NCBI RefSeq assembly: GCF_001509795.1
Contig: NZ_LLZN01000127.1
Location: forward strand, 1 to 64,000
DNA length: 64,000 bases
Direction of reading: 5' to 3'
Source of the DNA: Streptomyces sp. NRRL WC-3605
Lineage (GTDB): Bacteria > Actinomycetota > Actinomycetes > Streptomycetales > Streptomycetaceae
Numbering within the stretch: position 1 is the first letter of the stretch; every line of letters starts with the position of its first letter. The notes under the pieces are model-generated. The model was given only the letters and a program-made list of their open reading frames with translations. It did not search any database and had not been told where the DNA came from. Of this stretch, positions 1 to 34,849 are shown piece after piece. Both the position numbers and the translations under genes were made by a program.

Positions 1-979
1 CCCCGGCCGGGCCCCCCCCGCCCGCCCGGCGGGGCTGGGCCGGGGCCGGGGACACGCCGGGGGGGCCCCCGGCCTTCTCGTCCGCGGCGGAGTTGCGGGC
101 CGGCGGCGGGGCGGGCGGCGGGGCGGGCGGCTCCGAGCGCGCGGGTCCGGGCAGGGCGTCGTGATCGCCGAGGCGCTGCCGCAGGTCGGACGCCCGGCGC
201 CGGGCGTCCCGGACCGTCAGCGGGAGCGGGGACCAGCCGGCCAGCCGGCCCAGGGCCACCACCGGCGGATACACCGGGGACATCGCCATGATCTCCGCCG
301 GGTCGCCGAGGACCGGCGGGTCTCCCGGGGCGGGCAGCAGGACGACACGGTCCGCGTACTGCACGACGCGTTCCAGGCGGTGCTCGGCCATCAGCACCGT
401 CGTGCCCAGGTCGTGGACGAGGCGCTGAAGGACGGCCAGGACCTCCTCGGCGGCGGCCGGGTCCAGCGCCGACGTCGGCTCGTCCAGCACCAGCACCCTC
501 GGGTGGGGGGTCAGGACCGAGCCGATCGCGACGCGCTGCCGCTGCCCGCCGGACAGGGTGGCGATCGACCGGTCCCGCAGATCCGCCAGACCCAGCAGGT
601 CCAGCGTCTCCTCGACCCGGCGCCGCATCACGTCCGGGGCCAGGCCCAGCGACTCCATGCCGTAGGCCAGCTCCTCCTCCACCGTGTCGGTCACGAAGTG
701 GGAGAGCGGGTCCTGGCCCACCGTGCCCACCACGTCGGCGAGTTCACGCGGCTTGTGGGTACGGGTGTCCCGCCCGGCCACCGTGACCCGGCCGCGCAGG
801 GTGCCGCCCGTGAAGTGCGGCACGAGTCCGCTGACCGCGTTCAGCACGGTCGACTTGCCGACCCCCGACGGCCCGACGAGCAGCACCAGCTCCCCCTCGG
901 GCACCACGAAGTCCACCCCGTCGACGGTGGGCGCGGCGGCCCCGTCGTAGGTCACGGAGACGTTCTCGAAGCGGATCAC
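1..979 (-). CDS. ECF-type ABC transporter ATPase (EcfA), 3' end beyond window
   Basis: ATP-binding subunit of an energy-coupling-factor importer, acting on the inner face of the membrane. The visible 326 residues hold one full ATPase domain: Walker A GPSGVGKST near residue 37, signature LSGGQRQRVA near 138 and Walker B LVLDEPTSALD near 160. After about residue 265 comes a Pro/Ala/Gly linker, and the frame is still open at the left edge, so a second ATPase domain may follow, as in fused EcfA-EcfA' proteins. The GTG start overlaps the stop of the T-subunit gene by four bases (GTGA), showing translational coupling. It is the last visible gene of the riboswitch-led operon. The family call is firm; the substrate is inferred from context. 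Confidence 0.88.
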   Translation of the reverse strand, partial: MIRFENVSVTYDGAAAPTVDGVDFVVPEGELVLLVGPSGVGKSTVLNAVSGLVPHFTGGTLRGRVTVAGRDTRTHKPRELADVVGTVGQDPLSHFVTDTVEEELAYGMESLGLAPDVMRRRVEETLDLLGLADLRDRSIATLSGGQRQRVAIGSVLTPHPRVLVLDEPTSALDPAAAEEVLAVLQRLVHDLGTTVLMAEHRLERVVQYADRVVLLPAPGDPPVLGDPAEIMAMSPVYPPVVALGRLAGWSPLPLTVRDARRRASDLRQRLGDHDALPGPARSEPPAPPPAPPPARNSAADEKAGGPPGVSPAPAQPRRAGGGGPAG

Positions 980-2181
980 GACGGCTCCTCGCGGGCGACG
1001 GCACCGCGCGGCGCCGGCTTCCTCGGTGCGGGCTTCCTCGGTGCGGGGCCGACGAACGCCGGGAGCAGCCCGAGCAGGACGGCGGCCGCCGGCCACAGCG
1101 GAAGGGTGGGCGCGACCAGCGGCACCACACCCGGGTTCAGGGCCGCCGGCTCACGGCTCGCGGCCAGGGTCAGCAGGGCGGCGACCGCCGCGCCCGACCC
1201 GGCGACCAGCCACGCGCGCGGACCCCAGCGGTCGGGCCGGTAGCGGGTGCGCGGGGAGCGGCGCCCGCCCAGGCGCAGCCCCGCCAGCGCCGCCGCGAGA
1301 CCGGCGAGCAGCACCGGCAGCCCGTAGGTGCCGCCCGCGGCGGTCAGCAGCCCGTACGTGCCCGCGCACACGCCCAGCAGTCCGCCCAGGGTGAGCGCGG
1401 CCGTCGTGCGACGGACCCGGTCCGGGACGTCGGCGGTCCGGCCGTAGCCGCGCGCGTCCATCGCGGCGGCCAGCGCGACCGAACGCTCCAGCGCGCCCTC
1501 CAGCACCGGCAGGCCGACCTGGACCAGGCCGCGCAACCCCCGGTCCGGCCGTCCGCGCAGCCGGCGGGCGGCCCGCAGGCGCTGCACGTCGGCGATCAGG
1601 TGAGGGGCGTACGTCAGGGCCACCACCACCGCGACACCCATCTCGTACAGGGCGCCCGGCAGGGACTTCAGCAGCCGGGCCGGGTTGGCGAGGGAGTTCG
1701 CCGCGCCCACGCAGATGAGGAGCGTGGCCAGCTTCAGACCCTCGTACAGCGCCCGCACGAGCGTCTCGGCGGTGACCCGGCCGCCCAGCCGGATGCCCTG
1801 CGCCCAGTCGGGCAGGGCCACCTCGGGCAGGGTGACGAGCACATGGGTGCCGGGGATGGGGGAGCCGAGGGCCACCGCGAAGAACAGCCGGATCACGAGG
1901 ACGGCCAGGGCGAGCTTGACGAAGGCACCGTAGGAGCGGGCCCAGGGGGCGTCCGGGCGGCACGCCGCCACCACGTAGGCGGACGTCGCGGCGAGCAGGG
2001 CGAGCAGCAGCGGGTTGGTGGTGCGGGTCGCGGCGGTGCCGAGCGCCAGCGCCCAGACCCACCAGGCGCCGGGGTGGAGGGGGTCGCGAACGGGCCGCTC
2101 GGCGTCGGGCACGGCCGGGCCGGGGGCGATCGCTCCCTCCGGGCCGCCCCCGCTCCGTGTGCCGCCGCGCCCCCCTGCCAT
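976..2181 (-). CDS. ECF transporter transmembrane T subunit (CbiQ/EcfT family)
   Basis: Membrane scaffold of an ECF importer that links a substrate-binding S protein to the ATPases. The 401-residue product has several hydrophobic helices, and near residues 245-260 it carries the conserved EcfT coupling segment AAAMDARGYGR, which matches the family Ala-Arg-Gly motif contacting the ATPase. The ATG at 2181 shares a base with the TGA of the upstream gene (TGATG), and the stop overlaps the ATPase start (GTGA). A longer upstream frame exists but lies inside the preceding gene. The C-terminus is a low-complexity Pro/Arg/Lys tail. No S component is visible in the window; it may lie to the left. Confidence 0.88.
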   Translation of the reverse strand: MAGGRGGTRSGGGPEGAIAPGPAVPDAERPVRDPLHPGAWWVWALALGTAATRTTNPLLLALLAATSAYVVAACRPDAPWARSYGAFVKLALAVLVIRLFFAVALGSPIPGTHVLVTLPEVALPDWAQGIRLGGRVTAETLVRALYEGLKLATLLICVGAANSLANPARLLKSLPGALYEMGVAVVVALTYAPHLIADVQRLRAARRLRGRPDRGLRGLVQVGLPVLEGALERSVALAAAMDARGYGRTADVPDRVRRTTAALTLGGLLGVCAGTYGLLTAAGGTYGLPVLLAGLAAALAGLRLGGRRSPRTRYRPDRWGPRAWLVAGSGAAVAALLTLAASREPAALNPGVVPLVAPTLPLWPAAAVLLGLLPAFVGPAPRKPAPRKPAPRGAVAREEPS

Positions 2182-2816
2182 CAGCCGCGCCGCCGTCGTG
2201 CCTGCCAGACGGCCGCGCCCGCCAGGACCACGACGGCCGCGACACCGGCGACCAGACCGACCGAGGCACCGCCCTCCGCGTCGTCCTCCGGCTCGGTGGC
2301 CGCGGGCTTCTCGCCCTGGGCGACCTGCTCGCCGCAGCCCTTGCGCGGGTAGCCGTCGATCGCGCACAGCAGGGCGTTGGAGTCGTACCGCAGCGGACCG
2401 GCGACGGCCGCCAGAGCGTCCGCGGTCGTGGCGTCCGGGTCGACGCGAGCGCAGACGGTGCGCCGGGCCGGCGGCCTCTCGCCCGAGGGGGCGTCGGCGG
2501 CCGTGCCGAAGTCCAGCACCAGCGCGATCCGCTTCTTGCCGTCCCGCGCCGGTGTACGGGCACAGATCACGGAGAACTCGGCCGCGCCCCGGGGCCGCGT
2601 GGCGTCCTTCGAGTCCTCGCTCACGGCGAAGCGGAAGCCCTGCACATCGCCGTCGTCGGGACGGGACAGCGAGGGGCCCAGGGAGGCGTACGACCAGGAG
2701 CCGCCGTCGCGGTCCCAGAACGACCAGTAGCGGTACCCGGTGGCCTGGGCGGCCTGGGCCGCGCCGGCCGTCAGGACCAGCGCGGCCAGCAGAACCGCGA
2801 GGGCGCGCCGGATCAC
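2181..2816 (-). CDS. Secreted, C-terminally anchored protein of the cobalamin-riboswitch operon (SCO2322-like)
   Basis: A 211-residue protein with a signal peptide at residues 1-22 (IRRALAVLLAALVLTAGAAQA), an extracellular part of about 150 residues, and one membrane helix near 180-203 followed by an Arg-rich tail, so it should sit on the outer face of the membrane. From memory it resembles the streptomycete family NCBI names SCO2322. The stretch around residues 125-150 (ADALAAVAGPLRYDS, then LLCAIDGYPRKGCGE) looks to me like the beta domain (DUF4430 type) of transcobalamin and intrinsic factor; that is inference. The start GTG overlaps the upstream TGA (GTGA), so it is co-translated with the toroid protein. 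Confidence 0.75.
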   Translation of the reverse strand: MIRRALAVLLAALVLTAGAAQAAQATGYRYWSFWDRDGGSWSYASLGPSLSRPDDGDVQGFRFAVSEDSKDATRPRGAAEFSVICARTPARDGKKRIALVLDFGTAADAPSGERPPARRTVCARVDPDATTADALAAVAGPLRYDSNALLCAIDGYPRKGCGEQVAQGEKPAATEPEDDAEGGASVGLVAGVAAVVVLAGAAVWQARRRRG

Positions 2817-4024
2817 GCCCGGCCGCCCTTGTTGCGGTGGCTCAGCAGGAAGCCGATGCCGATGCCGACGACGAGGAAGACGCCGATGTACCACCAGACG
2901 CCGAACGGGCTGTCGTCGTCCTTGTCCTCCTGGGCGTCCGCGCTCTTCCCGGCCGCCTTCTGCGGCGCCGGGCCGGTCGCGTTCAGCTTCGCGACCAGGT
3001 CGGTGCCGCCGAAGTCGCGCGGGTCGGTGCCGGTGGCGTGCGCGGCGAAGATCAGCTGGGCGTAGGCGGCGGGGCCGTTCTGCGCGGCCCACTTCGCGGC
3101 GTTGCCCTCCAGCCAGCTCAGGGGCTTCGCGGCGGCGCCGGCCCCGCCCTGCGCGGCGAGCGCGACCACCGCGTCGGCCGTGTTGCCGTAGTCCGGCTGG
3201 TCGTCGGCGCCGGGCAGCGCGGAGACCAGGTGCCCGTCCTTGCCGAGCACCCGCGTCAGGTAGGCGGCGCCGTTGGCGGCGGCCTGCTCCGGGGAGCCGG
3301 CCTTCGCGCAGGTGGCGCCCGCCTTCTCGCCGGCGCTCGCGACGAGCCCCTTGCCGAGTGCGCCGATCACGCCGGCCGCGGTGGCGTCGGCGTTGGCGGC
3401 CAGCTCGCCCTTCTTGTCCGGCTGGTAGGCGAAGGCGCCCGCGTCGTCGCCCTCGCAGGGCAGGGCGAGGGAGAGCAGGGCGTCGTAGGGCGACTTGCCG
3501 TCCTTGGTGACCTCGGCCGGCTTCTCGCCCGCGGCGGCCAGTGCGCCGACGACGACCGACGTCGAGTTGGTGTCGCTGGCCCCGCCCGGGGTGTAGCCCC
3601 AGCCGCCGTCCTTGTTCTGGACGGACTTCAGCCAGGTCACGGCCTTGCCGGTGACGGTGTCGTGGCCGCCGAGCGCCGTCAGGGCCTGCACGGCGGCGGC
3701 GGTGCTGTTGCTGTCGACCATCACCTTGGCGTCGCACGCCTTGGCGGTGTCGGCGCGGTACGCGGCGAACGCGCCGTTCGCGCACTGCTGCCCGGTCAGC
3801 CAGTCCACGGCCGACGCGGCGGGCCGCACCTTCGCGGTGTGCTGGGCGAGCAGGGCGAGGGACTGCCGCCAGACCCCGTCGTACGTCGGGTCGGTGGTGC
3901 CGTACAGCCCCTTGGGGAGGGCCGCAGACGGCGACGGGGACGGTGAGTCGGCGGCCATGGCGGGCGCGGTCGCGCCGAGCACGACGGTGGCGGCCAGGGC
4001 CGCGGCGCTGCGGCGGACGTTCAT
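2813..4024 (-). CDS. Secreted membrane-anchored alpha/alpha-toroid (prenyltransferase/squalene oxidase repeat) protein
   Basis: First gene of the riboswitch-led operon; 403 residues. A signal peptide ends near residue 24 (ATAPAMAADS), followed by a Ser/Pro stretch. Repeats of the toroid type run from about 30 to 345, including NKDGGWGYTPGG near 145 and repeated AVQALTALGG-like helices, and one membrane helix (WWYIGVFLVVGIGIGFLL) lies near 375-393. This is the fold of terpene cyclases and of the alpha domain of intrinsic factor and transcobalamin. With a cobalamin riboswitch upstream and an ECF importer downstream, a corrinoid-binding surface role fits better than cyclase chemistry, and I saw no DxDD cyclase motif. 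ATG at 4024 was chosen because it starts the signal peptide; the longer frame to 4135 runs into the riboswitch. Confidence 0.85.
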   Translation of the reverse strand: MNVRRSAAALAATVVLGATAPAMAADSPSPSPSAALPKGLYGTTDPTYDGVWRQSLALLAQHTAKVRPAASAVDWLTGQQCANGAFAAYRADTAKACDAKVMVDSNSTAAAVQALTALGGHDTVTGKAVTWLKSVQNKDGGWGYTPGGASDTNSTSVVVGALAAAGEKPAEVTKDGKSPYDALLSLALPCEGDDAGAFAYQPDKKGELAANADATAAGVIGALGKGLVASAGEKAGATCAKAGSPEQAAANGAAYLTRVLGKDGHLVSALPGADDQPDYGNTADAVVALAAQGGAGAAAKPLSWLEGNAAKWAAQNGPAAYAQLIFAAHATGTDPRDFGGTDLVAKLNATGPAPQKAAGKSADAQEDKDDDSPFGVWWYIGVFLVVGIGIGFLLSHRNKGGRA

Positions 4025-4149
4025 GATCGGCGGGTGCCCTCTCCCTGTGGGGAGCCGGACAGCACGGGAGGACCCCCGGGCGGCTCGGCTCCGTATACCT
4101 CGACGGTGCCGTGCTCCGGCAGGCTGCCGGGACACGTGAGCCGGTCACG

Positions 4150-4310
4150 TCCGTCCAGGGCGGTCCGGCTCACCGGCCTCGGACCGTCCGCCACGGGGGC
4201 GGGGACGCGGGGACCGGTTCACGGTTGCGGGTCAGCGCCGGAATTGCACCGGCTTTCCCCTGAACGGGTGAGTGATGACGACCGGGACACTGTACCCGGC
4301 CGTAACCCGG
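4150..4310 (-). promoter_or_regulatory. Cobalamin riboswitch
   Basis: On the minus strand, 4260-4221 carries the conserved aptamer core: GGGGAAAGCCGGTGCAATTC followed by CGGCGCTGACCCGCAACCGT, which matches the family pattern GGGAA..GGTGxAAxTCC..CxGxCCCGCxAC. The 3' B12-box-like element (GGTGAGCCGGACCGCCC) is at 4174-4158, and a GC-rich hairpin region leads to the ATG at 4024. The element lies 130-280 bases upstream of the toroid gene. The 5' and 3' limits are approximate. In this family adenosylcobalamin binding lowers expression, usually by hiding the start region or forming a terminator. Confidence 0.93.
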
Positions 4311-4366
4311 GCTCTCCGGGGCACCTCGCACCGGGTACCGTCCTGCCGACGCGAGGGGGCAGGACG

Positions 4367-5020
4367 ATGGGGCGACTGATCGGTTCGGGGCGGACCGCCG
4401 ACGTGTACGAGGTCGACCGGCACTGGGTGCTGCGCCGGGACCGGGAGGGGTACGGCGACGCACTCGCCGAGGGCGAGGTGATGGCGCACGTGCGCGGCCA
4501 CGGCTTCCCGGCGCCCCGCGTCCGCCTCGACGGCTCCTCGCGGACCGAGCTGGTGATGGAGCGCCTCACGGGGCCGACGATGCTGGGCGCGCTCGTGGCG
4601 GGCACCCTCGGCCCGGACGAGGCGGGTGCGGAACTCGCCCGTCTGCTGCGGCGGCTGCACGGCCTGCCCGGACGCCGCCCCGGGACCCGCGTCCTCCACC
4701 TGGACCTGCACCCCGACAACGTGATCCTCACCCCGGACGGGCCGTACGTCATCGACTGGAGCAACGCCCGTGACGGCGACCCCGGTCTCGACTGGGGCGC
4801 CTCCGCGGTGATCCTCGCCCAGGTCGCCGTCGGCGACGAGGTCCTGGCGGCGAGTGCCCACGCACTGCTCGCCGCCCTGCTGGCCGACCCCTCGGACCTC
4901 ACCGACGCCGGGCTGTCCCAGGCCCTGCGCGAACGGGCGGCCAACCCGACGATGACCGAGCGGGAGACCGGCCTCCTGGGCGCCGCCGAGAAGCTGATCC
5001 GCACGTTCCTTCCCGGGTAG
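4367..5020 (+). CDS. Small aminoglycoside phosphotransferase-like kinase
   Basis: A 217-residue protein with an APH/choline-kinase fold. A Gly-rich ATP loop lies at 4-12 (LIGSGRTAD), the Brenner catalytic motif HLDLHPDN at about 118-125, and the metal-binding IDWSNARDGDPGLDWG near 134-149. It is shorter than the usual 250-300 residues of antibiotic kinases because the N-lobe is compact, and it resembles the small phosphotransferases common in Streptomyces whose substrates are unknown. A GGGGGCAGGACG ribosome site precedes the ATG. It diverges from the riboswitch operon and its stop lies one base from the stop of the convergent MBL gene. No resistance role can be inferred from sequence alone. 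Confidence 0.82.
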   Translation: MGRLIGSGRTADVYEVDRHWVLRRDREGYGDALAEGEVMAHVRGHGFPAPRVRLDGSSRTELVMERLTGPTMLGALVAGTLGPDEAGAELARLLRRLHGLPGRRPGTRVLHLDLHPDNVILTPDGPYVIDWSNARDGDPGLDWGASAVILAQVAVGDEVLAASAHALLAALLADPSDLTDAGLSQALRERAANPTMTERETGLLGAAEKLIRTFLPG

Positions 5021-5021
5021 G

Positions 5022-6050
5022 TCAGACCGCCACGTACGCCACCGGCTCGCTCCCCGTCACCGCCTCCGCCCGCCCCAGCTTCACCAGGCGGCGCAGGTGG
5101 GCCTCCGCCTCCGCGACCGCGATGGTGCGGGAGCCCGGTGGGATCCGGACCCAGGGGCGGTTCCACTCCATGCGTTCGGCGAGCTGCCACGGGGTCAGCG
5201 GGGTGGTGAGCAGCGCCAGCAGACCCGTCAGCCGTGCCTCGTGGTGGTCGAGCAACTCCCGTACGCGCGCCGGGGCGTCGGTGAACGCGTGCTGGTGTGC
5301 CGGCAGGACCTCGGCGGGGCCGAGGGCGGCGACGCGTTCCAGTGAGGCCAGGTAGTCGCCGAGGGGGTCGGTGGCCGTGGTGTCGTCGGGGTCCTCGTAC
5401 AGGCCGATGTGCGGGGTGATCCCGGGCAGCAGGTGGTCGCCGGAGAACAGCCGGCCGTGGCCCGGGAGTCCGGCCGGGTGGTCCTCCTCCAGGTGCAGGC
5501 AGACGTGGCCCGGGGTGTGGCCCGGCGTCCAGACCGCGCGCAGCCGGCGGCCCGGGAGGTCCAGCAGCTCGCCCGGGACGATCTCCCGGTCGGGGTCGGC
5601 GGGGGAGAAGCCCGGCAGGGAGCCGGGGCGGCGGGCGGCGCGCAGCGGGGCCACGTGCTCCTCGGGGGCGCCGGCCGCCGCGAGTTTGCCGGCCATGTAC
5701 GCGAACCAGGTCTCGGGGCGTGTCGCCCGGGTGCGCCGGACGATCGCCGCGTCCGCCGCGTGCATCGCGATCCAGGCGCCGGACGCCTCACGCACCCGGC
5801 CGGACAGGCCGTGGTGGTCGGGGTGGTGGTGGGTGACGACCACGCCGACGACATCCGCGGGCGTGGTGCCGCAGGCCGCGAGGCCGTCGGTGAGGGTGTC
5901 CCAGGAGGCCGGGTCGTCCCAGCCGGTGTCGACGAGCACGGGGCCGCGGTCGGTGTCGACGACGTGCACGAGGGTGTGGCCGAGGGGGTTGTCCGGGATC
6001 GGGACCCGGAGGGACCGCACCCCGCCGCCGTGGTCGTACACCTGCGTCAT
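5022..6050 (-). CDS. MBL-fold metallo-hydrolase
   Basis: A 342-residue member of the metallo-beta-lactamase superfamily. The zinc motif THHHPDHHG is near residue 70, a second ligand region GHTPGH near 178, and an SGDHLLPG segment near 210. A C-terminal winged-helix-like domain follows (HLRRLVKLGRAEAV), as in hydrolases that act on thioesters or glutathione adducts. The start at 6050 has GGGGAG eight bases upstream; an in-frame ATG at 6062 is possible. A minus-strand -10 (TACTAT, 6107-6102) sits beside the KstR-type site at 6110-6123, so it is probably controlled with the neighbouring aldehyde dehydrogenase. The exact substrate is unknown. Confidence 0.85.
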   Translation of the reverse strand: MTQVYDHGGGVRSLRVPIPDNPLGHTLVHVVDTDRGPVLVDTGWDDPASWDTLTDGLAACGTTPADVVGVVVTHHHPDHHGLSGRVREASGAWIAMHAADAAIVRRTRATRPETWFAYMAGKLAAAGAPEEHVAPLRAARRPGSLPGFSPADPDREIVPGELLDLPGRRLRAVWTPGHTPGHVCLHLEEDHPAGLPGHGRLFSGDHLLPGITPHIGLYEDPDDTTATDPLGDYLASLERVAALGPAEVLPAHQHAFTDAPARVRELLDHHEARLTGLLALLTTPLTPWQLAERMEWNRPWVRIPPGSRTIAVAEAEAHLRRLVKLGRAEAVTGSEPVAYVAV

Positions 6051-6109
6051 GGGCTCCCCCATCGCCGCGACCGTCGCGCGGCACGGACCGGCCGCCCGGC
6101 CATAGTAAC

Positions 6110-6123
6110 TAGAACGAGTTTCG
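6110..6123. promoter_or_regulatory. KstR-type operator 1
   Basis: TAGAACGAGTTTCG fits TnnAACnnGTTnnA, the mycobacterial KstR consensus, except for the last base. It lies in the divergent region between the MBL hydrolase (start 6050) and the aldehyde dehydrogenase (start 6275), next to a good minus-strand -10. Confidence 0.6.
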
Positions 6124-6189
6124 ATGGGAGCCCGAGTCATCCATCCGCCCGTCGGTCCGGTCGTGCACGGTCCGTGGACTCCTCTGGGT

Positions 6190-6207
6190 GGAACTGGTAT
6201 CAGTTCC
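6190..6207. repeat. Inverted repeat upstream of the aldehyde dehydrogenase
   Basis: GGAACTG-GTAT-CAGTTCC, perfect 7-base arms with a 4-base centre, 68 bases before the aldehyde dehydrogenase start. Size and position suit a repressor or activator site; the binding protein is unknown. Confidence 0.45.
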
Positions 6208-6274
6208 CCTGTATCTGATGGGTCGTCAGGGTGCCTGGCGCGTTCAGGGTGCGGCTCCGGGGAGGCAGTCGGTC

Positions 6275-7732
6275 ATGACCGAACTCGTGGAACACGGACA
6301 GCTGTTCATCGGCGGGCAGTGGGCCGACCCCCTGGGCGGTGACGTCATCGAGGTGGTCTCACCGCACACCGAGGAGGTCATCGGCCGGGTGCCGCACGCC
6401 TCCCGGGCCGACGTGGACCGGGCCGTCGGCGCGGCCCGCCGGGCCTTCGACGAGGGGCCCTGGCCCCGCACGAGCCTGGACGAGCGCATCGAGGTCGTCG
6501 GCCGGATCAAGGACGGGATCGCCGCCCGGCACGAGGAGATCGCCCGCGTCATCTCCGCCCAGAACGGCTCCCCCTACTCCTGGAGCGTCCTCGCCCAGGC
6601 CCTCGGCGCGATGATGGTGTGGGACGCGGCGATCACCGTCGCGCGCGGCTTCCCCTACGAGGAGCCACGCGACGGCGTCCTCGGGCGGATCCTCGTGCGC
6701 CGCGAGCCGGTCGGCGTCGTGGCGGCCGTCGTCCCCTGGAACGTCCCGCAGTTCGTCGCCGCCGCCAAGCTCGCGCCCGCCCTGCTCGCCGGATGCACGG
6801 TCGTCCTCAAACCGTCCCCCGAGTCGCCGCTCGACGCCTACCTGCTCGCGGAGATCGCGGCCGAGGCCGGGCTGCCCGAGGGCGTGCTGTCGGTCCTGCC
6901 CGCCGACCGCGAGGTCAGCGAGTATCTGGTCGGGCACCCCGGCGTCGACAAGGTCTCCTTCACCGGATCCGTCGCCGCCGGCAAGCGCGTCATGGAGGTC
7001 GCCGCCCGCAACCTGACCCGCGTCACCCTCGAACTCGGCGGCAAGTCCGCGGCCGTGGTCCTGCCCGACGCGGACGTCGAGGCGACGGTGGCCGGCGTGG
7101 TCCCGGCGGCCTGGATGAACAACGGCCAGGCGTGCGTGGCCCAGACCCGCATCCTGCTCCCGCGCTCCCGCTACGACGAGTTCGCCGAGGCGTTCGCCGC
7201 CGCGGCCGGCGCCCTCCTGGTCGGCGACCCGCTGGACCCCGCCACCCAGGTCGGCCCGCTCGTGGCGCGGCGCCAGCAGCGGCGCAGCCTCGACTACATA
7301 CGGATCGGGCAGGAGGAGGGCGCGAAGATCCTCACCGGCGGCGGACGCCCCGCCGGCCTGGAGAAGGGCTGGTACGTAGAGCCGACCCTCTTCGGTGACG
7401 TCGACAACGCGATGCGCGTCGCCCGCGAGGAGATCTTCGGCCCGGTCGTCTGCCTGCTGCCGTACGGCGACCAGGACGAGGCCGTGAGGATCGCCGACGA
7501 CTCGGAGTACGGGCTGTCCGGCAGCGTGTGGACCGGCGACGTCGAGCGCGGCATCGAGGTCGCCCGGCGGGTCCGTACCGGGACCTACTCCGTCAACACC
7601 TTCAGCCTCGACATGCTCGGCCCCTTCGGCGGCTACAAGAACTCCGGGCTGGGACGGGAGTTCGGGCCCGAGGGCTTCGGCGAGTACTTCGAGCAGAAGA
7701 TGATCCATCTGCCCGCCGGCTGGGAGGCGTGA
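6275..7732 (+). CDS. NAD(P)-dependent aldehyde dehydrogenase
   Basis: A 485-residue enzyme of the classical ALDH superfamily that oxidises an aldehyde to an acid in the cytosol. The NAD-site PWN motif (VVPWNVPQF) lies near residue 153. The catalytic region includes VTLELGGKS (general-base Glu near 253) and NNGQACVAQTR (nucleophilic Cys near 287), and the C-terminal EEIFGPV near 386 is typical. Length is normal. The ATG at 6275 has GGGGAGG nine bases upstream; the earlier in-frame start at 6188 would consume the inverted repeat. It is followed after two bases by a ferredoxin gene and flanked by KstR-type operators, which suggests oxidation of a lipid- or steroid-derived aldehyde. Confidence 0.92.
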   Translation: MTELVEHGQLFIGGQWADPLGGDVIEVVSPHTEEVIGRVPHASRADVDRAVGAARRAFDEGPWPRTSLDERIEVVGRIKDGIAARHEEIARVISAQNGSPYSWSVLAQALGAMMVWDAAITVARGFPYEEPRDGVLGRILVRREPVGVVAAVVPWNVPQFVAAAKLAPALLAGCTVVLKPSPESPLDAYLLAEIAAEAGLPEGVLSVLPADREVSEYLVGHPGVDKVSFTGSVAAGKRVMEVAARNLTRVTLELGGKSAAVVLPDADVEATVAGVVPAAWMNNGQACVAQTRILLPRSRYDEFAEAFAAAAGALLVGDPLDPATQVGPLVARRQQRRSLDYIRIGQEEGAKILTGGGRPAGLEKGWYVEPTLFGDVDNAMRVAREEIFGPVVCLLPYGDQDEAVRIADDSEYGLSGSVWTGDVERGIEVARRVRTGTYSVNTFSLDMLGPFGGYKNSGLGREFGPEGFGEYFEQKMIHLPAGWEA

Positions 7733-7734
7733 CG

Positions 7735-7968
7735 ATGGGCGACCGCTGGCACGTCGAGGTCGACCGGTCGCTGTGCGTCGGCTCGGCCCAGTGCCTCCAC
7801 CGCGCCCCCGGCGGCTTCCGCCTCGACCGCGCCCGCCAGTCCCATCCGGCCGACCCGGAGACCGACGCCGACGAGTCGGTCCTCGCGGCGGCCGAGAGCT
7901 GTCCCGTGGAGGCCATCGCGATCACCCTGCTGGGCACCGGGGAACCCGTCTTCCCGCCCGAGGAGTAA
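7735..7968 (+). CDS. Single-cluster ferredoxin, [3Fe-4S] type
   Basis: A 77-residue electron carrier. The cluster ligands are Cys15 and Cys21 in CVGSAQC and the Cys of ESCPVEAI near residue 62. The x5 spacing with no fourth ligand in the first motif fits the [3Fe-4S] ferredoxins that feed actinobacterial cytochromes P450. It starts two bases after the aldehyde dehydrogenase stop, so the two are co-transcribed, but there is no P450 in the window. Its likely partner is a P450 or oxygenase elsewhere that produces the aldehyde's precursor. Confidence 0.88.
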   Translation: MGDRWHVEVDRSLCVGSAQCLHRAPGGFRLDRARQSHPADPETDADESVLAAAESCPVEAIAITLLGTGEPVFPPEE

Positions 7969-7996
7969 CCCCTCAGCGGCGCCGCGGCTCCTCGGG
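7957..7996. terminator. Possible bidirectional terminator hairpin
   Basis: Arms CCCGAGGAG (7957-7965) and CTCCTCGGG (7988-7996) are perfectly complementary, with a GCGGCGCCGC palindrome in the loop. It spans the ends of the convergent ferredoxin and kstR-like genes and has no U-tract, so it is only a candidate. Confidence 0.35.
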
Positions 7997-8599
7997 GGCC
8001 GTCAGGTCGATCAGCCGGCAGACCGTCTCGATGTCGATCTTCACCTGGGCGATCGAGGCGCGCCCCGACAGCCAGGTGATCAGGGCCGAGTGCCAGGTGT
8101 GCTCGATGACGCGGACGGCGGACAGCTGCTGCGGCGTCGGGTCCTCCAGACCCATCGCGTCCAGGATGATCATCGTGGTCTGCCGGGAGACCTGGTCGAC
8201 CTCCGGGGAGACGCTGCGGTCCGCGAACGTCAGCGCCCGCACCATCGCGTCCGCCAGATGCGGCTCGCGCTGCAGTGCGCGGAACGCCCGCATCAGGGTC
8301 TCCGCGACCCGCTCGGCCGCCGTCGCGCCCTGCGGCGGCTTCTTGCGCAGCGTGCCGTGCATGTGCTCCAACTGGGCCTGCATCGTGGCGACCAGCAGAT
8401 GCACCTTGGACGGGAAGTAGCGGTACAGCGTGCCGAGCGCCACCTGGGAGGACTCCGCGACCTCGCGCATCTGCACGGCGTCGAAGCCGCCCCGGCTCGC
8501 GAGCTGCGCGCTGGCGTGCAGGATGCGTCGGCGGCGGGCCTCCTGCCGCTCGGTGAGAGGCGGTGAGGGAGGGCTCGCGCTACTGACTTCCGCAGGCAT
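7973..8599 (-). CDS. kstR: TetR-family regulator, KstR-like
   Basis: A 208-residue repressor with a helix-turn-helix at about residues 20-65 and an all-helical ligand domain. The DNA-binding part (GGFDAVQMREVAESSQVALG then TLYRYFPSKVHLLV) matches what I recall of Mycobacterium KstR (GGYEAVQMRAVADRADVAVG, TLYRYFPSKVHLLV) almost word for word, and DRSVSPEVDQV also has its counterpart. KstR represses cholesterol catabolism genes and is released by steroid CoA thioesters. Three KstR-type sites in the window support the call. Start 8599 gives the normal KstR N-terminus; a TTG at 8737 would add 46 unlike residues. The symbol is by similarity, not proof of ligand. Confidence 0.82.
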   Translation of the reverse strand: MPAEVSSASPPSPPLTERQEARRRRILHASAQLASRGGFDAVQMREVAESSQVALGTLYRYFPSKVHLLVATMQAQLEHMHGTLRKKPPQGATAAERVAETLMRAFRALQREPHLADAMVRALTFADRSVSPEVDQVSRQTTMIILDAMGLEDPTPQQLSAVRVIEHTWHSALITWLSGRASIAQVKIDIETVCRLIDLTAPEEPRRR

Positions 8600-8740
8600 G
8601 GATCCCGTTCCGTGACAGTCGGTGAGGGTGGGTGACCGGACAGAGCATGCCAGGGGTCGGCCGTGGCGTGAATCACCTGATCCATCGCTCACAGCGGCGC
8701 TACCTGCCGGTAGATTCAGAGCCTCCTGAACGATCAAGTC

Positions 8741-8754
8741 TGAAACTTGTTCTA
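8741..8754. promoter_or_regulatory. KstR-type operator 2
   Basis: TGAAACTTGTTCTA is an exact TnnAACnnGTTnnA match inside a longer dyad (8739-8756). It lies between the kstR-like gene and the glycosyltransferase operon. A plus-strand -10 (TAGATT, 8753-8758) overlaps it, so it could control both directions. Confidence 0.72.
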
Positions 8755-8808
8755 GATTAACGTCCCGGCGTAACCTCGCGGGACAGAGCAGGGAGAGAGG
8801 GGCCCGGA

Positions 8809-10245
8809 GTGACCGCTGAGGCCAGGGAGGCCGGGTCTCCGACGGACCTTGCCGCCGACGGCGGGCGACCGCTCGACATCGCGCTTCTCACCTACAAAGG
8901 GAACCCGTTCTGTGGCGGTCAGGGCGTCTACGTACGGCACCTCTCCCGCGAACTCGCCCGCCTCGGCCACCGCGTCGAGGTCATCGGCTCCCAGCCCTAT
9001 CCGGTGCTCGACGAACACGAGGACTACGCGGGCCGCCTCACCCTCACCGAGCTGCCCAGCCTCGACCTGTACCGCCAGCCCGACCCCTTCCGCACCCCCG
9101 GGCGCGACGAGTACCGCGACTGGGTCGACGCGCTGGAAGTGGCGACCATGTGGACCGGCGGCTTCCCCGAGCCGCTGACGTTCTCGCTGCGCGCCCGCCG
9201 CCTGCTGCGCGCCCGCCGCGGCGACTTCGACGTCGTGCACGACAACCAGACCCTCGGCTACGGCCTCCTCGGCGACGTCGGCGCCCCCCTCGTCACCACC
9301 ATCCACCACCCCATCACGGTGGACCGCCGGCTGGAGTTGGACGCCGCCACGACCTGGCAGCGGCGGATGTCGGTCCGCCGGTGGTACGCCTTCACCCGGA
9401 TGCAGAAGCGGGTCGCGCGCCGCCTGCCGTCCGTCCTCACCGTCTCCGGCACCTCCCGGGGGGAGATCGTCGACGACCTCGGCGTACGGCGGGACCGCAT
9501 CCACGTCGTCCACATCGGCGCCGACACCGACCTGTTCTCGCCGGATCCGTCGGTCCGGCGGGTGCCCGGCCGGATCGTGACGACGTCCAGCGCCGACGTG
9601 CCGCTGAAGGGCCTGGTGTTCCTCGTCGAGGCGCTCGCCAAGGTCCGCACCGAACACCCCGACGCCCATCTCGTCGTCGTCGGCAAGCGCCCCGAGGACG
9701 GCCCGGTCGCCCGCGCCGTCGAGCGCTACGGCCTCGAAGGCGCCGTCGACTTCGTCAAGGGCATCTCCGACGCCGAACTCGTCGACCTGGTCCGCTCGGC
9801 GGAGGTGGCCTGCGTGCCGTCGCTGTACGAGGGCTTCTCGCTGCCCGCCGCCGAGGCCATGGCCACCGGCACCCCCCTGGTCGCCACGACCGGCGGGGCG
9901 ATCCCCGAGGTCGCCGGACGCGACGGCGAGACCTGCCTCGCGGTGCCGCCCGGCGACCCCGGTGCGCTGGCCGCCGGGCTGACCCGGCTGCTGGGCGACG
10001 CCGGCCTGCGCGACCGGCTCGGAGCGGCCGGACGCGAGCGGGTCCTCCAGCACTTCACCTGGGCCAAGGCCGCCGAGGGCACGGTGGCGCGGTACCGCGA
10101 GGCGATCGCCGCCGGCCGGCACCCCCGCGCCACGGCCGCGGACACCGCTCCGGCCACCCCCGTCCGCTCCACGACCCCACCCGTCACCGCCCCGGCCTCC
10201 CCCCTCGTCGAGGGCGCCGACACCGAAAGCAGGGCCACGTGCTGA
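8809..10245 (+). CDS. GT4-family glycosyltransferase
   Basis: A 478-residue retaining glycosyltransferase of the GT-B fold. The N-terminal Rossmann domain starts at DIALLTYKGNPFCGGQGVYV (residues 24-43), whose Gly-Gly-Gln/Gly-Val loop is typical of GT4 acceptor sites. The C-terminal nucleotide-sugar domain holds the EGFSLPAAEAMATGTPLV motif near 344-361, with the E-x7-E donor signature. A low-complexity tail follows residue 435. The GTG at 8809 follows an AGGGAGAGAGG site. It overlaps the next gene by seven bases and forms a three-gene coupled operon with a methyltransferase and a toroid protein. Product and acceptor are unknown; a glycolipid or polysaccharide is plausible. Confidence 0.9.
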   Translation: MTAEAREAGSPTDLAADGGRPLDIALLTYKGNPFCGGQGVYVRHLSRELARLGHRVEVIGSQPYPVLDEHEDYAGRLTLTELPSLDLYRQPDPFRTPGRDEYRDWVDALEVATMWTGGFPEPLTFSLRARRLLRARRGDFDVVHDNQTLGYGLLGDVGAPLVTTIHHPITVDRRLELDAATTWQRRMSVRRWYAFTRMQKRVARRLPSVLTVSGTSRGEIVDDLGVRRDRIHVVHIGADTDLFSPDPSVRRVPGRIVTTSSADVPLKGLVFLVEALAKVRTEHPDAHLVVVGKRPEDGPVARAVERYGLEGAVDFVKGISDAELVDLVRSAEVACVPSLYEGFSLPAAEAMATGTPLVATTGGAIPEVAGRDGETCLAVPPGDPGALAAGLTRLLGDAGLRDRLGAAGRERVLQHFTWAKAAEGTVARYREAIAAGRHPRATAADTAPATPVRSTTPPVTAPASPLVEGADTESRATC

Positions 10246-34437: not shown

Positions 34438-34849
34438 GGCAGACGAGCCGGGCGGGCGGCCGCGTGGAGTCCCTCAGGGGGCTTCCCGAGGAACGTCCGG
34501 GCTCCACAGGGCAGGGTGGTGGCTAACGGCCACCCGGGGTGACCCGCGGGACAGTGCCACAGAAAGCAGACCGCCCGGCACTCAGGTGCCGGGTAAGGGT
34601 GAAACGGTGGTGTAAGAGACCACCAGTGCCTGGGGTGACTCAGGCAGCTAGGTAAACCCCACCCGGAGCAAGGTCAAGAGGAGCGCTGTAAAAGGCGCTC
34701 TGCGCGGACGATCGAGGGCTGCCCGCCCGAGTCCGCGGGTAGACCGCACGAGGCCGGTGGCAACACCGGCCCTAGATGGATGGCCGTCGCCGACGGGCCC
34801 GCGAGGACCCGTCGGAACAGAACCCGGCGTACAGCCCGACTCGTCTGCC
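34438..34849 (+). ncRNA. rnpB: RNase P RNA, class A
   Basis: Catalytic RNA that matures tRNA 5' ends. The terminal P1 helix is seen as GGCAGACGAG (34438-34447) pairing perfectly with CTCGTCTGCC (34840-34849). The conserved P4 5' strand with flanks, GAGGAACGTCCGGGCTCCA, starts near 34489, and its later partner region ACAGAACCCGGCGTACAG near 34817. CRII/CRIII-type segments such as GGGTAAGGGTGAAACGGTGG and TAAACCCCACCCGGAGCAAG are also clear. Total length of about 412 nt fits actinobacterial type A RNA. Confidence 0.96.

Follow-up and report, generated by a model that had tools for sequence, protein, structure and literature searches.

The window analysed herein spans 64 kb and opens contig C126 of the 7.58-Mb genome of Streptomyces sp. 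NRRL WC-3605. Its minus strand, between 4.3 kb and the contig edge, carries a cobalamin riboswitch core, genes for an alpha/alpha-toroid protein and a 211-residue protein, and two components of an energy-coupling factor (ECF) transporter, namely EcfT and EcfA, the latter with its first half only (Table 1). We consider this to be probably a corrinoid-repressed uptake operon for cobalamin or cobinamide, in which the two surface proteins would form a two-chain transcobalamin with a circularly permuted beta domain that feeds a group I ECF transporter. The wider proposition, that Actinobacteria use a two-chain, tethered and beta-permuted transcobalamin as an outer receptor delivering corrinoids to an ECF transporter, we hold to be evenly balanced. 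The grounds are the gene order, the riboswitch match, the homologies, the circular permutation of the small domain and the natural fusions that join toroid to beta domain and S component to toroid, all of which are visible at the level of sequence comparison.

The genes form the coupled chain that the initial annotation had read directly from the letters, with overlaps of 4 nt between the toroid and 211-residue protein genes (GTGA), 1 nt between the latter and EcfT (TGATG) and 4 nt between EcfT and EcfA (GTGA). Likewise, both surface proteins have the hydrophobic N- and C-terminal stretches on which it based secretion and anchoring (the N-terminal one at residues 7–25 in the toroid protein), each C-terminal stretch leading into a short tail that contains basic residues. 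The second ATPase half and the S component are apparently missing from the window because the contig ends there; in complete relatives of the genus the full-length operon consists of toroid, small protein, EcfT, a double-ATPase EcfA and the S component. The S component, which was to be sought left of the window, was found at the end of contig C54 in the same genome: this contig terminates within a second ATPase half, the S component (78% identity to the S protein of locus L025) lies directly next to that half, and the gene order in relatives suggests that the C126 and C54 ends belong together. PF12822 matches above the cut-off are likewise seen for the S components of L025 and L031, and the best NCBIfam rows for EcfA are ECF ATPase models, all under their cut-offs. 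With EcfT in the operon, and with two ATPase domains and an S component through the proposed contig join, the transporter has the makeup of a dedicated (group I) ECF system. The toroid/small-protein operon was found repeatedly across Actinomycetota. A separate layout occurs at L085, L089, L090 and L091 (genomes G225, G343, G008 and G268), where single frames of 1013–1196 codons, counted stop to stop, match, one after the other, profiles for EcfT, the double ATPase and the S component, so that a single chain holds an entire ECF transporter, and a small ordinary-order beta protein adjoins; Pfam places two ATP-binding cassette stretches above cut-off in L085, L089 and L091, with CbiQ below it and an ECF S match, also below, for L091 only.

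The corrinoid assignment begins with the leader. A cobalamin aptamer with a B12 box had been proposed there, and the RF00174 model matches at 29.0 bits (E 1.9e-5 over the 701 nt searched), with a genome-wide E of 4.9e-5; this is one of five RF00174 matches in the genome, the other four lying above the cut-off. The B12-box-like GAGCCGGACCGCC, identified by eye, follows the aptamer match at 4171–4159. Of the 12 genomes in the genus sample (the window’s included), 9 have a match at the corresponding site, four of them above the cut-off, and the window’s match is therefore not a chance hit. The first aptamer hairpin was recovered by pattern at eight of the ten genus loci searched, again including the window. 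Across the phylum the small domain is present in 66 of 396 genomes, and a match was counted when it lay on the same strand within 3.5 kb upstream. By this measure 53 of the 66 genomes carry one (51 at the first scan; 32 of the 66 above cut-off), since laxer filters applied to the remaining 15 added G108 and G062 (E 4.1e-4 and 4.6e-4); G022 matched weakly (E 0.003). The operon starts at a contig end in five of the genomes without a match (G002, G242, G322, G335 and G362). As separate observations on the leader, at L024 (G193), near 3326, one of those eight loci, the first hairpin is retained while the conserved part behind it has diverged, as though the riboswitch were in decay, and several genus loci share a second conserved segment, GACCGGCTCACGTG ... 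GTCGAGGTATACGGAGCC (about 4160–4040 in the window, between aptamer and start codon), which is perhaps the expression platform.

Cobalamin riboswitches also control cobalt ECF importers of the CbiMNQO type. That the operon imports cobalt instead of corrinoids, the surface proteins being accessories, nevertheless appears improbable to us. The resemblance of EcfT and EcfA to CbiQ and CbiO would suit a metal importer, as would the name of the Pfam family that EcfT matches (Cobalt transport protein) and the reported cobalamin riboswitch upstream of the cbiM genes for cobalt transport of Streptomyces lividans (PMC8079986). However, the tested S components match PF12822 with no CbiM model listed, and two large outer proteins of transcobalamin architecture are ill suited to a metal ion. 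Moreover, the operon of L031 is directly followed (5736–9264) by genes of the CobU, histidine phosphatase (cobC-like), CobT, CobS and BtuR families, which, together with the upstream matches counted above, bears out the corrinoid context of the initial annotation.

The comparison with transcobalamin concerns the pair of surface proteins. Judged by its family matches, the window’s 403-residue protein is a member of the toroid group; besides NF053823, it matches Pfam SQHop_cyclase_C (PF13243, 36.4 bits, cut-off 26.1). Toroid and beta domain occur as one open reading frame at six loci (L070, L074, L075, L083, L102 and L132), and 19 of the 53 proteins from one search are such fusions, 12 that begin with the toroid and 7 that begin with the beta domain (P0142–P0146, P0148 and P0177, of which P0177 is recorded as Micromonospora and P0144 as Anaerolineae). 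An AlphaFold model of one fusion, P0127 (524 residues, mean predicted local distance difference test score (pLDDT) 86.9), shows a 12-helix toroid and a beta-grasp domain, and in a Foldseek search of the PDB its top eight matches are transcobalamin, with intrinsic factor and haptocorrin within the first 19. Alignments to transcobalamin and intrinsic factor extend to residue 454, covering both domains (335–350 residues aligned, Z 20.5–22.1), whereas those to terpene cyclases stop at about residue 300 (253–265 aligned, Z up to 26.6). A second kind of fusion, P0159 (614 residues), consists of an ECF S component followed by an alpha/alpha toroid (PF07155 above cut-off, PF12822 just below), and would thus tie the receptor physically to the S component in at least one protein. 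Some of the toroid–beta fusions end in wall anchors, with three CW_binding_2 repeats in L070 and SLH repeats in L083; by eye, the L074 and L075 fusions resemble L070.

The initial annotation had read the two surface proteins as a split transcobalamin, and their correspondence to its two domains is supported, in that the natural fusions and the fold match contain the same two domains, but the small protein proved to be permuted and not a simple beta domain. In the ordinary order, strand 1, strand 2, helix and strand 3 are followed by an aromatic part (YWSYW..G.W.YS..G....G.VEGW.F), whereas in the SCO2322 family, that of the window’s protein, the aromatic part leads. When 60 permuted proteins were set against 45 ordinary domains in hhalign (E-values are for a single comparison), two crossed matches emerged, family columns 6–44 against ordinary-order columns 70–109 (E 3.4e-15) and family columns 74–140 against ordinary-order columns 1–66 (E 6.3e-12), and with the two parts swapped a single match spanned 102 columns (E 5.1e-26). 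A profile of seven ordinary-order domains yielded a two-piece match in all 13 permuted proteins tested, the better piece scoring 38.6–45.8 bits, and the six proteins printed in full have their pieces in crossed order. The AlphaFold2 model of the 211-residue protein (mean pLDDT 85.5; 80–98 in ten-residue blocks over residues 31–160) has strands at 27–37, 40–43 and 57–66 in its first half and, in its second, strands at 95–102 and 119–125, a helix at 131–138 and strands at 142–144 and 150–153; its elements thus come in the permuted order, and those of P0127 in the ordinary one. The likeness might be a chance resemblance of two short motifs, and the second pieces of those six proteins score as little as 6.0–8.5 bits in the single-profile search, but we find this scarcely credible given the crossed and swapped profile–profile E-values, the element-by-element correspondence of predicted strands and helix, and the operon position that both forms share.

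The ordinary order is found in 54 of the 66 small-domain genomes, and 13 (12 of the genus, plus G062) match in the aromatic part only, with G171 carrying both orders. Querying the class with L029’s permuted protein produced matches in 131 of 345 genomes, and the best rows were collinear across both halves in 115 of the 117 genomes examined. Streptomyces, Kribbella, Nocardioides and Actinopolymorpha are among the genera named in records of the permuted family; for the window’s protein, the close homologues that carry a name are Streptomyces proteins. The permutation may most simply have arisen through tandem duplication of an ordinary domain whose outer halves were then lost; L075 holds a tandem pair of ordinary domains, so the intermediate that this route needs exists. 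At sequence level the link to transcobalamin goes by way of small proteins encoded in the same operons, with Pfam DUF4430 (PF14478) matches in G171 (36.4 bits) and G040 (25.4 bits) above the cut-off and in G006 (16.9 bits) below it. In G040 and G006 the gene for the matching small protein comes first behind the riboswitch, and the alignment of these two proteins with the ordinary-order domain runs from end to end (E 1.8e-5 at a probability of 78%); inclusion of a third small protein (L095, not a DUF4430 match) gives E 3.8e-10, the best of 50 column shuffles reaching 0.026. Neither P0002, at E ≤ 1, nor any protein of the window’s own genome matches DUF4430. In G171, which belongs to the genus, locus L036 (7134–14137) is a second, ordinary-order system beside the permuted one, with a toroid and a DUF4430 protein after its S component.

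Several results count against a corrinoid-clamping pair under riboswitch control. The window’s aptamer stays below the RF00174 gathering score of 31.5, a shortfall that the initial annotation had named as contrary to its proposal, although four orthologous sites in the genus pass; a whole-window Rfam scan at the gathering threshold accordingly returned RNase P only and no riboswitch, and three genus genomes (G023, G193 and G107) have the operon with no upstream RF00174 match even with laxer filters. No toroid lies near the four single-chain ECF loci, whose genomes gave no RF00174 match at any position. The beta profile found no transcobalamin among PDB sequences, and none of six ordinary-order proteins scanned matches DUF4430. 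Fold searches with the permuted protein itself gave no match, as expected because the aligners are sequential, and the fold link therefore runs through relatives. Against ligand-bound carriers, P0127 shows a root-mean-square deviation of 8.7–12.5 Å, so the relative placement of the domains in the model differs from that in holo-transcobalamin. Finally, cyclases outscore transcobalamin in Z when the P0127 toroid is taken alone.

This last result, together with the squalene-hopene cyclases that are nearest to the window’s toroid by sequence, would fit an active terpene cyclase or prenyltransferase that neighbours a transporter only incidentally, which we judge very improbable. D-x-D-D is the catalytic motif of class II terpene cyclases. 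It is absent from the toroid domain of the window, where the sole instance (DKDD, residues 367–370) lies in the acidic linker outside the domain, and from 31 of 39 relative toroid regions, the other eight having it at scattered positions; the conserved operon and the fusions to the beta domain and to the S component also argue against a cyclase. More weight, though still on the unlikely side, falls to surface proteins that act separately, one alone capturing the ligand with no clamp. A profile search found no toroid nearby in 14 of 53 locus groups (some at contig ends), which also speaks against the clamp; this, taken with the single-chain subgroup, means that some systems do without a toroid or have another ligand. 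In addition, several operons have extra beta or small SLBB proteins, and each surface protein has its own anchor. Against separate action stand natural fusions that join just this pair of domains, the combination present in transcobalamin, and such fusions indicate which parts work together.

On the two-chain transcobalamin interpretation, scarcity of corrinoid would permit expression of the operon, as the class of the riboswitch implies. The toroid would provide the larger cup and the SCO2322-family protein a transcobalamin-type beta-grasp with swapped halves, each presumably tethered on the outside of the membrane by its own C-terminal helix, and the two would close over cobalamin or cobinamide. 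The S component would then receive the captured corrinoid and be turned to the inside by the ECF module, with transport powered by EcfT and the double-ATPase EcfA. We infer that the two chains assemble, bind a corrinoid and hand it over, and that the operon is repressed. We speculate that two tethers instead of one chain ease opening and release.

To our knowledge, accounts of ECF importers usually assign substrate binding to the membrane-embedded S component and include no outer binding protein (PMC5997447), and the present system would therefore be an ECF transporter with a dedicated extracellular receptor; if true, this would alter the usual view that the vitamin is bound solely via the S component. 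BtuCDF differs from the present system in the type of both binding protein and importer. It is alike in that an outer binding protein feeds an ATP-binding cassette importer for B12, as stated in the accessible part of Santos et al. 2018 (PMC5997447), whose subject, ECF-CbrT of Lactobacillus delbrueckii, is likewise an ECF importer of cobalamin and cobinamide with an S component. ECF-CbrT, however, has the shared group II module and no outer receptor mentioned in that part of the paper, in contrast to the dedicated T-A-A-S set and two outer proteins seen here. Animal transcobalamin, intrinsic factor and haptocorrin, the top PDB matches of the bacterial fusion, have the same alpha6/alpha6 toroid and small beta-grasp domain, but in the family as such a single chain runs from toroid to ordinary-order beta domain; here there are two genes for membrane-tethered chains, a permuted small domain and an adjoining ECF pump, and transcobalamin-like binding is predicted. 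The bacterial kin of the animal B12 carriers are hereby extended to a split, circularly permuted form.

The initial annotation knew of no such system in actinobacteria, which appears to hold for the split, permuted form but not for the general idea: in low-GC Gram-positives, surface proteins with toroid and SLBB domains beside CbiO/CbiQ were predicted to be B12 scavengers (Burroughs 2007, PMC1796856). In the available portion of that paper these proteins are secreted, contain toroid and SLBB in either order and are often accompanied by a second SLBB protein; its transcobalamin-like clade, in the same portion, has no named actinobacterial member and no SLBB permutation, Mycobacterium being listed among the figure abbreviations with its clade unstated. 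Since the toroid–SLBB scavenger was published in 2007, only the actinobacterial split, permuted form appears to be new, and for this no description was found in the literature searched, most subscription journals being outside the search. The present system is thus an actinobacterial variant of the 2007 kind, common in Streptomyces and kin, with two anchored chains, a permuted domain and a cobalamin riboswitch, and to the published systems we add the split chains, the permutation, the riboswitch statistics and the S-component fusion. A precedent for circular permutation of a beta-grasp is the UFD domain of eukaryotic E1 enzymes, in which, from the part of the source available (PMC1949818), strand 1 has moved to the C-terminus; in the SCO2322 family strands 4–5 are at the N-terminus. 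The surface pair belongs to NCBIfam NF053823 (SCO2321) and NF040672 (SCO2322), and to PF28005 by precomputed annotation, entries that state no function, and the two uncharacterised families, present in Streptomyces and many other actinobacteria, gain an identity that is open to testing.

Table 1 Features of the operon, with positions in the window unless a contig is named.
Feature	Position	Strand	Basis
Cobalamin riboswitch aptamer core and B12-box-like element	4158..4262	-	Rfam RF00174 match 4255-4170
SCO2321-family secreted, membrane-anchored alpha/alpha toroid protein, 403 aa	2813..4024	-	NCBIfam NF053823, 636.8 bits
C-terminal membrane anchor of toroid protein, residues 376-394	2843..2899	-	Hydropathy
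SCO2322-family secreted, anchored protein, 211 aa, permuted transcobalamin-type beta-grasp (SLBB)	2181..2816	-	NF040672, 233.5 bits
First half of permuted domain, residues 27-66 (ordinary strands 4-5)	2619..2738	-	hhalign
Second half of permuted domain, residues 95-161 (ordinary strand 1, strand 2, helix, strand 3)	2334..2534	-	hhalign
C-terminal membrane anchor of 211-aa protein, residues 185-203	2208..2264	-	Hydropathy; modelled helix 186-210
EcfT, CbiQ-type transmembrane component	976..2181	-	PF02361 CbiQ, 35.8 bits, cut-off 25
EcfA, first ATPase half, frame open at contig end	2..979	-	PF00005, 100.4 bits
S component, own genome	G000:C54:93570-94403	-	PF12822, 31.5 bits, cut-off 30.7

Beyond the operon, the divergent neighbour on the plus strand (4034–5020) belongs to the APH phosphotransferase family (PF01636, 69.7 bits), and N-termini resembling it are seen at the equivalent position in L027 and L037. 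The window also contains, at 34444–34847 on the plus strand, a class A RNase P RNA (290.3 bits).

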